DNA of 64,000 nt from Methanogenium sp. (GTDB taxonomy: Archaea > Halobacteriota > Methanomicrobia > Methanomicrobiales > Methanomicrobiaceae), in assembly GCA_030595665.1 (NCBI GenBank), contig JAUVCV010000006.1:1-64000 (forward strand). Direction: 5' to 3'. The notes below the pieces were generated by a model. The model saw only the letters and a list, made by a program, of their open reading frames with translations, made no database searches and had not been told where the DNA came from. Positions 26,702-37,293 of the stretch are shown here, piece after piece. The position numbers and the translations under genes are program-made. Each line of letters begins with the position of its first letter. Position 1 is the first letter of the stretch.

Positions 26702-26910
26702 ATTATATCTGTATTAGTATCGGCAGGGAGTATTATACGGTTTATTACTTGGTGCAGGGACTGTATATATGCCGGATGCCGGGAATGGCGTCTGTCCCTT
26801 ATCCCCTTGTTACGTGCGAAAATATGATGGGACTGTCAAATATGTTCGAATTCACCTGATTAAAAAGAAATGAAAAAATCATCTTCTTCACGAAGAAAAC
26901 AGGCAGGAAG

Positions 26911-26930
26911 CCCACGACTTTAGTCGTGGG
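26911..26930. repeat. Left-end palindrome of the TnpB element
   Basis: CCCACGACT and AGTCGTGGG arms flank a TT centre. An additional small hairpin (TTCTT/AAGAA around CACG) lies 15 bases upstream. The palindrome is identical to 28098-28117 and, inverted, to 36069-36088. Confidence 0.85.
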
Positions 26931-26987
26931 AGGAATGCCGTAATAACAGGACTATTAAATATATATAGATTATATTGTGCTAAATTC

Positions 26988-28124
26988 ATGCTACTAACGA
27001 TAAAGGTCAAATTGTTGACTAATCAGGAACACCATGACATCCTCCTAAAAACAATGGAACGTTTCAATGATGCCTGTAATTATATCTCTGCAGTAGCATG
27101 GGAGAATCAGAGATTTGGGAAGATCGGGCTTCAGAAAATACTCTATTATGATGTCCGGGAACTGTTCGGATTGTCCGCTCAGATGACCGTCCGGGCCGTA
27201 GGCAAGGTATCCGAAAGTTACAAAATAGATGACAGAAAACAACACCATTTCAGACATCATGGTGCAACAGTGTATGATAAACGCATCCTGAGTCCAAAAG
27301 GGGCTGACCGGGTATCTATCCTGACACTTGAAGGGAGAATCCTTGTCCCTGTAGTGTATGGAGAATTTAGAAAACTCGACAAAAAACGTATCAGAGGACA
27401 GGCAGATCTTGTTTATATAAAAAATGTTTTTTATTTGATGCTCGTCATTGATCTTCCAGACGATGAATTAATGAAAAACCCCGATGGGACGCTTGGTGTT
27501 GACATGGGGATTGTCAATCTCGCAGTTACCAGTGACGGTGAAGTATTCTCCGGTGACAAATGCACAAAATCCCGTCAAAAATATACTACTCTCAAAAAAC
27601 GGTTACAACCCGTCAAAACGTGGAATGCAAAGAAACATCTAAAGCGTATTTCCGGAAAGGAACGACGATTTAAGAAGGATGTTAATCATTGCATCGCCAA
27701 ACAGATTGTGAAAGTTGCTAAAGACACACACCGGATGATAGCTCTTGAAGATTTAGGAGGTATCCGCAAATCCGGCCACACGGTTTCAAAGGGACTACGC
27801 ACATCGATTGGCAAATGGGCATTCTACGAATTAGGTATGTATATTCAATATAAGGCACAAATGGCAGGTGTTCCGGTATCTTTTGTTGATCCAAAATACA
27901 CTTCTCAACAGTGTTCAGAATGTGGATTTATTAGCAAAGGCAATAGAAAAAATCAGTCCGAATTTGTGTGTTTGGAATGTGGGCATTCCGAGAATGCCGA
28001 CGTTAATGCAGCAAAAAATATCTCTTTTAGGGTCGATGTCAACCGGCCTATTGCACTCCGTTCCTCTGGTCTTAAAGAGGAAAGTTGGAAGGGCAGGCCC
28101 ACGACTTTAGTCGTGGGTAGTTGA
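26988..28124 (+). CDS. tnpB: TnpB RNA-guided nuclease (IS605 OrfB family)
   Basis: This 378-residue protein has the split RuvC nuclease with all three acidic residues in place: Asp in LGVDMGIVNLAVTS (about residue 167), Glu in MIALEDLGG and Asp in NADVNAAKNI near the C-terminus. The zinc ribbon has CSECG and CLECG pairs around residues 306-333. These are the features that make TnpB an RNA-guided endonuclease ancestral to Cas12. Length is typical and no frameshift is seen, so it looks active. The last eight codons encode the right-end hairpin. Codons are more AT-rich than in neighbours. Confidence 0.92.
   Translation: MLLTIKVKLLTNQEHHDILLKTMERFNDACNYISAVAWENQRFGKIGLQKILYYDVRELFGLSAQMTVRAVGKVSESYKIDDRKQHHFRHHGATVYDKRILSPKGADRVSILTLEGRILVPVVYGEFRKLDKKRIRGQADLVYIKNVFYLMLVIDLPDDELMKNPDGTLGVDMGIVNLAVTSDGEVFSGDKCTKSRQKYTTLKKRLQPVKTWNAKKHLKRISGKERRFKKDVNHCIAKQIVKVAKDTHRMIALEDLGGIRKSGHTVSKGLRTSIGKWAFYELGMYIQYKAQMAGVPVSFVDPKYTSQQCSECGFISKGNRKNQSEFVCLECGHSENADVNAAKNISFRVDVNRPIALRSSGLKEESWKGRPTTLVVGS
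28098..28117. repeat. Right-end palindrome of the TnpB element
   Basis: The same 20 nt as the left end; it is followed by TAGTTGAC, which resembles the TAGTTCAC that ends the other stranded copies in this window (40771-40801, 44779-44900, 55788-55899). Confidence 0.85.
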
Positions 28125-28670
28125 CTCCTCACTTTCAATAACGCCATCCACAAAGCCCTCGAGCTGTGCCAGGATAGATGGTTCTATTCCCTTTTCTACG
28201 GCGAGAAAAACTCCCGATATATCAAGTATCTTTAATTTGCTCGTTATAAAATGGATAAATTTAGTCAGATTCGTGGATGAAATATAGATGAGCATACTGT
28301 TAATCGAATCCAGAAGAACCCAGACATTCTCCCCCTCAATTGTTTTCAGCAGTTCTGTGACTGCTATGCCCATTTCTGTCAGGTTTGAGGGATTGTTAAC
28401 AAATGTACAGTTAACGGCACCTTCCGACTCTTTCCCGATTGCATATTTTGTTATAGCATCGATGAAATGGACTTTGTCGAGGTTTATACCGCCCTTCACG
28501 TAATCTTTTCGAAGTACATTATATGGATCGTTTGTGGTTATGACAATAGTCGTAAACCCTTTATCGGTAATCTTCTTTATTATCTCTATATTTTTTTTCC
28601 TGATGCTCCGTGGTTCTGAGAGAACAAGATATATCATCCCCTCATTACTCTCGTTAAAGGACAAATCCAC
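28107..28670 (-). CDS. RAD55/KaiC-like protein without P-loop, 3' end altered by TnpB element
   Basis: This 187-residue protein has the layout of a RecA/KaiC-type core: alternating strands and helices with a Walker B-like NVWVLLDSINSMLIYI near residues 113-128. There is no GxxxxGKT loop, so ATP hydrolysis is doubtful. The last residues (after VIESEES) and the stop lie in the TnpB right end, so the original C-terminus has probably been replaced. It begins 8 bases after the PAS-domain gene, and the pair is likely a signalling unit. Similar small RAD55-like proteins accompany sensor genes in Methanomicrobiales; the function is unknown. Confidence 0.65.
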   Translation of the reverse strand: MDLSFNESNEGMIYLVLSEPRSIRKKNIEIIKKITDKGFTTIVITTNDPYNVLRKDYVKGGINLDKVHFIDAITKYAIGKESEGAVNCTFVNNPSNLTEMGIAVTELLKTIEGENVWVLLDSINSMLIYISSTNLTKFIHFITSKLKILDISGVFLAVEKGIEPSILAQLEGFVDGVIESEESTTHD

Positions 28671-36060: not shown

Positions 36061-36112
36061 GTCAACTACCCACGACTAAAGTCGTGGGCTTTCTGCCTGT
36101 TTTCTTCGTGAA
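36061..36112 (-). repeat. Solo TnpB-element end (left and right ends fused), upstream of cdc6
   Basis: Read on the minus strand this 52-nt sequence matches the left end of the tnpB element for 44 nt with one mismatch, including the 20-nt palindrome (36069-36088). It then continues with TAGTTGAC, which occurs at the right end and not the left. It is therefore a minimal copy lacking the tnpB gene. It ends ~18 bases before the cdc6 TATA box. Confidence 0.85.
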
Positions 36113-36129
36113 AATAACAAACACCTATT

Positions 36130-36139
36130 CTTATATAAT
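36130..36139 (+). promoter_or_regulatory. cdc6 TATA element
   Basis: CTTATATAAT centred near 36135 lies 25 bases before ATG 36160, so the message is probably leaderless. The solo element just upstream occupies the position where activators or repressors usually bind. Confidence 0.55.
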
Positions 36140-36159
36140 TCGCCGTGAGATTCTCTGGT

Positions 36160-37293
36160 ATGAAGAAGAACCTCCTGATGTGGGATGAGTCAATCTTCCA
36201 GAACATGGAGGTCTTTGAGTTTGACTTTGTTCCCGGGCAGTTTGATTTTCGTGACACACAGGAGCAGGAGCTTGCCTTCCAGATACAACCGGCTCTCCGT
36301 GGCGGGCGCCCTTTGAATACCATCTGCCGCGGTTTGCCGGGCACCGGGAAGACGACCAGTATCAGGAAACTCTTCACTGAGATTGAGGAGAACACCAAAA
36401 AGATTGCCCCGGTGCATATCAACTGCCAGATAGACAATACCAAATTTGCGATATTCGCCCAGATATACCGGTGCATCTCCGGGCATCTTCCCCCGGGTTC
36501 AGGTACCTCATTTAAACAGGTCTTTGATTCGGTCTGTCGCCTGTTGGCAAAGGAAGATACGGTTCTTCTGGTCTGCCTTGACGATGCGAACTATCTGATG
36601 TATGAAAGCGAGATCAACAAGGTGCTTTACACCCTTCTCCGTGCTCATGAGTCCTATCCCGGCATAAAGATCGGGGTAATAGTCGTGATCTCTGATATGT
36701 CTGTTGACCTGATGCAGGCAGTGGACCCACGTGTGGTGTCTGTGTTTCATCCGAATGACATCTACTTCCCGCCCTATGACGAGGATGAAATAAAAGTGAT
36801 TCTCCGCCAGCGGGTGAAGGAGGGATTCTATCCGGGGGTGATAAGTGAAGCGATGCTGGACCTCATCACCGAGCAGACACTGAAAGGAGGGGACCTCCGG
36901 GTGGGTATTGACCTCCTGAAACGTGCAGGTCTCAATGCAGAGAAAGATGCCCGCAGGAGTGTGGAACGTGATGATATCTGCCGTGCCTATGAAGTATCAA
37001 AATACCTGCACCTTACGGCAACCATCCATGCCCTCCGCCCGGAAGAACGTGCCCTCCTGCACCTGATTGCCGAACGCTCACGCGAAGAGAAAGAGATGGC
37101 CGCAGGAAAGGTGCACGAGGCGGTGAAGGCATCTTCGATGAAACTGGGTTATACCCGGTTTTATGAGATGGTCACAAAATTAGATTCGATGCGGCTTGTC
37201 AATCTGCACTATCGGGAGGGGCGGGGGAGGACCCGTCTTATAACGCTCAGGTATGATCCGGACCGGGTTATTGAAGAGATTGATCGCTGCTGA
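36160..37293 (+). CDS. cdc6: ORC1/Cdc6-type replication initiator
   Basis: This 377-residue AAA+ protein recognises origins and loads MCM. It opens MKKNLLMWDES and FDFRDTQEQELAFQIQPAL, a standard archaeal Cdc6 start. The Walker A loop is GLPGTGKTTS near residues 63-72, and the Walker B strand reads VLLVCLDDANYL. A winged-helix domain at about 285-377 ends RTRLITLRYDPDRV. ATG 36160 is chosen over GTG 36145 because of the TATA distance and the conserved N-terminus. In many archaea an origin lies next to such a gene; I could not identify clear origin-recognition boxes in the short flank. Confidence 0.94.
   Translation: MKKNLLMWDESIFQNMEVFEFDFVPGQFDFRDTQEQELAFQIQPALRGGRPLNTICRGLPGTGKTTSIRKLFTEIEENTKKIAPVHINCQIDNTKFAIFAQIYRCISGHLPPGSGTSFKQVFDSVCRLLAKEDTVLLVCLDDANYLMYESEINKVLYTLLRAHESYPGIKIGVIVVISDMSVDLMQAVDPRVVSVFHPNDIYFPPYDEDEIKVILRQRVKEGFYPGVISEAMLDLITEQTLKGGDLRVGIDLLKRAGLNAEKDARRSVERDDICRAYEVSKYLHLTATIHALRPEERALLHLIAERSREEKEMAAGKVHEAVKASSMKLGYTRFYEMVTKLDSMRLVNLHYREGRGRTRLITLRYDPDRVIEEIDRC

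Follow-up and report, generated by a model that had tools for sequence, protein, structure and literature searches.

A single-hairpin remnant of a tnpB element in front of cdc6 in Methanogenium, probably an immobile scar

The window analysed here, a 64,000-nt stretch of a Methanogenium contig (JAUVCV010000006.1), holds a complete tnpB element and, upstream of the cdc6 gene, a much shorter sequence composed of the ends of such an element. The complete copy, which represents the parental type, has the following parts.

26892..28125 (+): complete tnpB-only (IS1341-type) IS200/IS605 element, 1234 bp, with target TTCAC at 26887-26891
26911..26930 (+): left-end hairpin, a direct repeat of the right-end hairpin
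26988..28124 (+): tnpB, 378 aa, with OrfB_IS605 and Cas12f1-like TNB domains; its stop codon overlaps the right end
28098..28117 (+): right-end hairpin, with the foot CAGG and then TAGTTGAC

The tnpB reading frame in the window is open, and its product matches Cas12f/TnpB structures. When the full element was searched against Rfam, only a sub-threshold chance match was returned, and thus no curated omega-RNA family covers it. The features at the second site are as follows.

36061..36107 (-): terminal-only mini-element, 47 nt (left end, one hairpin and TAGTTGAC), recognized from its end matches and from the empty site in relatives
36061..36065 (-): right cleavage site TTGAC, derived from the full element's right end; by guide/cleavage scoring, its matching guide CAAG is absent from the mini-element
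36069..36088 (-): hairpin CCCACGACTTTAGTCGTGGG, a perfect 8-bp stem with a TTTA loop (DNA fold -9.1 kcal/mol, z -3.8)
36089..36092 (-): left guide tetranucleotide, AAAG in place of GAAG; by the same scoring, unpaired with the C of TTCAC
36108..36112 (-): target TTCAC (GTGAA on the plus strand), host sequence 5' of the left end, also present at the empty site of the sister species G004 and of other Methanogenium
36131..36139 (+): TATA box of cdc6; the position of TTATATA is conserved in Methanogenium
36160..37293 (+): cdc6/orc1 gene (Pfam Cdc6_lid, Cdc6_C), from a conserved ATG at 36160; the ORF is open from a GTG at 36145

The original prediction described a 52-nt copy that joins 44 nt of the left end of the tnpB element, with one mismatch, to its right end, and that stops about 18 bases before the cdc6 TATA box. 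Alignment bears out this architecture: 44 nt align to the left end (26887-26930; E 6e-18) with a single mismatch, the 29 nt shared with the right end (28097-28125) are identical, and exactly 18 nt separate TTCAC from TTATATAAT (36131-36139). The length needs correction. A matching stretch of 52 nt does exist (36061-36112, minus strand, TTCAC followed by GAAGAAAACAGGCAGAAAGCCCACGACTTTAGTCGTGGGTAGTTGAC), but empty sites in relatives identify the first five nucleotides as host target, and the element proper is the 47 nt at 36061-36107. Its first 39 nt correspond to the left end of the 26892-28125 element, with the single mismatch at 36092, inside the left guide tetranucleotide, and its last 29 nt correspond to the right end. 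The two matches overlap in the 20-bp hairpin, such that the mini-element comprises a left end and one hairpin, followed by the 8 terminal nucleotides of a right end. Shuffled windows predict 0.02 occurrences of the palindrome each, whereas the real window has 6 strand-matches (3 sites). This chimera of left end, hairpin and right end supports the earlier view that the copy is a tnpB-less derivative of the tnpB element. As in a terminal-only PATE, IS605-type ends are fused around a near-terminal palindrome, and 47 nt are too few for a transposase gene.

Comparison with relatives shows how the mini-element came to lie at this site. The junction between a small upstream ORF and cdc6 is free of any insert in four other Methanogenium genomes (G002, which is M. 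marinum, G003, G004 and G006), each of which has a continuous GGGTGAA sequence through to the TATA box. Against these empty sites, the present genome has a clean 47-bp insert 3' of TTCAC with no target duplication, which is again the pattern of a terminal-only PATE. The mini-element is also absent upstream of cdc6 in M. cariaci (G001), where the target is altered, and no such palindrome was seen upstream of cdc6 across about 55 other loci. The empty sites therefore indicate a lineage-specific insertion, and together with the other cdc6 loci they rule out a conserved regulatory palindrome, the outcome that the original prediction had named as evidence against itself. The cdc6 orthologue of M. 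cariaci (L075 / L114) is broken into two frames at residue 177, reflecting either a pseudogene or a sequencing error.

Sequences of this kind are not confined to cdc6. The present genome has four minis (C8, C11, C42 and C47), along with four tnpB copies, of which two are complete and two truncated. At least 15 are found in the sister species G004, where recognizable full elements are fewer, and single copies occur in G001 and, in decayed form, in G002. At least 19 further copies in the genus are 47 nt long and share the same junction, with TCAC (NTCAC) preceding nearly all of them. When a covariance model of the mini was applied to 150 genomes of Methanomicrobiales, it matched ends or minis in 47. 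Minis also occur in other genera and families, and some of these have a compensated stem (CCCACCCC...GGGGTGGG). One mini from another family follows CTCAC at a site whose counterpart in a sister genome has no interruption (L347 versus L358), demonstrating a precise insertion with a clean empty site.

Several copies have distinctive surroundings. The C11 mini (L030) is flanked on both sides by a 122-nt repeat (1366-1487 and 2131-2252) that ends beside the target and is also present in G002. Two G004 minis (L039 and L041) have left flanks that match G002 (168700-170000 and 1252640-1253640) exactly up to TTCAC, while on the right-end side about 1 kb of the G002 sequence is missing and genes are truncated; neighbouring copies may, for instance, have recombined to produce these losses.

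To judge whether such copies can move, it is useful to consider how IS608 recognizes its ends: each hairpin has four bases at its foot that pair with the cleavage site, TTAC at the left end and TCAA at the right (PMC5934647). Covariation shows that a guide rule of this type holds almost without exception in the full elements of the present family. Among distinct full left ends (2 of the 35 'left end' rows being minis with a mutated tail), the cleavage base at position -3 and the foot base g15 are C-G in 16, T-A in 17 and otherwise in two. Among full right ends, collected with a partly fixed foot pattern that left the cleavage base free, they are G-C in 19, C-G in 12 and G-T in one. In the minis, a left-end foot (GAAG) is combined with the right-end site TTGAC. 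Their left site pairs with the guide in 21 of 23 scored copies, whereas position -3 of the right site is G-G in 22 and G-A in one, and is paired in none. Given that every scored mini has this combination, the right end cannot pair, and the guides for both cleavage sites that characterize a mobile non-autonomous IS200/IS605 element are not both present. In the cdc6 copy, AAAG replaces GAAG and the left pairing is lost as well. Had the minis moved as units, one would expect their foot and right site to have come to match, as is seen in other right ends, where foot and site match and GAAG occurs with TTCAC.

The same family includes a 234-bp non-coding element with two hairpins (L320, L321, L336, L342, L343 and L348, in G037 and G057). 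It is present in several copies that are 90-99% identical, most with both guides intact, and unlike the single-hairpin minis it is likely to be a mobile PATE.

We believe, with a probability of about 0.7, that the cdc6 mini is a terminal-only PATE remnant of a tnpB-only IS200/IS605 element that collapsed in place, leaving an immobile scar with little or no function. A full element would have entered TTCAC upstream of cdc6 in this lineage by single-stranded DNA transposition; the target, the orientation and the lack of a target duplication are directly visible. The two 20-bp terminal hairpins are identical direct repeats, and recombination or slippage between them would later have removed the core, so that a left end, a single hairpin and the final 8 nt of the right end would remain. 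Such a product would retain the left guide GAAG, while its right site TTGAC would still require the lost right guide CAAG. Because this guide is gone, the mini should not excise as a unit, and the G-to-A change in the left guide of the cdc6 copy would further disrupt pairing with its own target. Loss of mobility is thus our inference, and it builds on the guide pairing that covariation reveals in full elements. Since the feet and right sites of the minis are out of line with each other, collapse across the two hairpin repeats is their simplest source.

A full element and a mini occupying the same site in two genomes were not encountered in the clade, and flank searches across genomes turned up a single clean empty site. 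No mini site is filled by a full element in the M. marinum chromosome, several G004 sites are non-syntenic or have nearby deletions, and all orthologous mini sites compared between genomes were either empty or non-syntenic. In-place deletion of the core is consequently deduced from the structure of the minis and from the precedent in Haloquadratum.

An alternative that we judge unlikely, though deserving of serious attention, is that the single-hairpin mini is itself mobile. A TnpA acting in trans would excise and insert the 47-nt unit, either with a second hairpin provided in trans or with the right-end mismatch tolerated. The 15 minis of G004 compared with its few full elements, the uniform length of 47 nt, the clean empty sites and the intact TnpA of G004 are all consistent with such movement, and the authors who described a 52-bp PATE in Haloquadratum suspected that it moves, although they left the question open (PMC3119063). 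Nevertheless, the right cleavage site lacks its own guide in every mini scored and has not co-evolved to TTCAC even though other right ends have done so. Under the IS608 model one hairpin cannot occupy both sites of the TnpA dimer, and it is the 234-bp two-hairpin elements, with both guides, that account for near-identical multiple copies.

The transposase inventory bears on the same issue. Within the genus, Y1 TnpA was found only in this genome and in G004. The search for a tnpA elsewhere in the genome, as the original prediction had proposed, did recover one full-length copy and six fragments, but the full-length protein has HIN for HUH (DHINLL; the second HUH histidine, by reference to the ISDra2 and IS608 enzymes, is lost), and the hairpin of its own element differs from that of the tnpB element. 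The G004 TnpA has an intact HUH motif, and its element carries other hairpins. A cognate active TnpA, as expected for a mobile element, was not found in this assembly, which is about 91% complete and in 59 contigs, so a working enzyme could be missed. With no right-site pairing in 23 minis, and with a lone full-length TnpA that carries HIN and belongs to another hairpin, the proposal that the mini is moved by a trans-acting TnpA is left unsupported. Separately, a set of tnpA remnants (L013, L118, L120, L121, L123, L125, L015-L018 and L124) share an internal truncation, with the profile matching from about position 70 or 90, in otherwise similar IS605 copies, and core-deleted tnpA elements seem to have multiplied.

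It is conceivable, albeit rather doubtful, that TnpB itself favours single-hairpin scars, making them the expected death route of tnpB elements, more so in polyploid archaea. Precise excision would restore TTCAC together with the guide target, which would be cut and refilled from a chromosome copy still bearing the element. Conversely, a core deletion that keeps both junctions would escape TnpB and could spread among sister chromosomes.

We consider it very improbable that the mini has been co-opted as a cdc6 regulator, in which the hairpin or the insertion would alter transcription, for instance by terminating the upstream gene (the plus strand has the hairpin followed by CTTTCTGCCTGTTTTCTTC) or by splitting GGGTGAA. 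The hairpin remains perfect, the TATA box lies 23 nt downstream of the mini, and the insertion cuts between GG and GTGAA of a box that is placed identically in 9 of 11 genomes from three genera of the family (within Methanogenium, in 4 of 6, this genome counted). However, the insertion is found in one species only, unrelated loci carry near-identical minis, the layout from GTGAA to the intact TATA box is unchanged, and one relative (L075) has an altered box without any insertion. The box itself is located some 25 nt ahead of the cdc6 TATA box (36108-36114, plus strand, in the window; L049-L052, L054-L056, L060 and L061 elsewhere). It is possibly a candidate initiator or regulator site, and an effect of the 47-bp insertion on cdc6 expression is possible. 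GC skew shows no turn at cdc6 and no sign of an origin there.

That the mini is the source of a TnpB guide RNA aimed near cdc6, as had also been suggested, is exceedingly improbable: it retains the terminal 28 nt of the right end with host sequence directly after, but an ISDra2 reRNA extends over some 150 nt, drawn from the 3' end of tnpB and the right end together with flank (PMC8612924), and with only 28 nt left of a right-end scaffold of roughly 100-150 nt, nearly all of this region is missing, including the conserved TCTTAAAGAGG hairpin, and the element itself occupies the matching TTCAC-plus-guide site.

If the collapse reading is correct, the stub before cdc6 is one among many lineage-specific scars in Methanomicrobiales and is probably not a switch. 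The comparison of a single hairpin foot with both cleavage sites provides a simple sequence rule by which dead terminal-only copies can be told from mobile two-hairpin PATEs, a question that had stayed open for Haloquadratum.

The terminal-only PATE is a known kind of element, of which the cdc6 stub is a new example. In Haloquadratum walsbyi, strain comparison revealed that the 1500-bp ISHwa23 collapses between its 19-bp near-terminal palindromes, leaving a terminal-only PATE of 52 bp (PMC3119063). Both cases involve an archaeal tnpB-only IS605-type parent, a single remaining palindrome, fused termini, a length of about 52 bp with the target included, and no target duplication. The cdc6 mini differs in sequence and host order, and its core deletion is deduced rather than seen directly between strains, with guide pairing as additional evidence. 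Like IS608 and ISDra2 (PMC5934647), the family inserts 3' of a short target and has near-end hairpins with foot guide bases that pair with the cleavage sites, whereas the mini is reduced to one hairpin, one guide and zero genes. Free-standing IS605 stem-loops on Borrelia plasmids (PMC2775950) are likewise end hairpins without a transposase beside host genes, but those are conserved by lipoprotein genes and the cdc6 mini occurs in a single species. Finally, REP elements mobilized by TnpA-REP (PMC8266576) are also single short palindromes related to Y1 transposases; for the mini, a dedicated TnpA-REP was not found, copies are few, and the ends clearly derive from a tnpB element.
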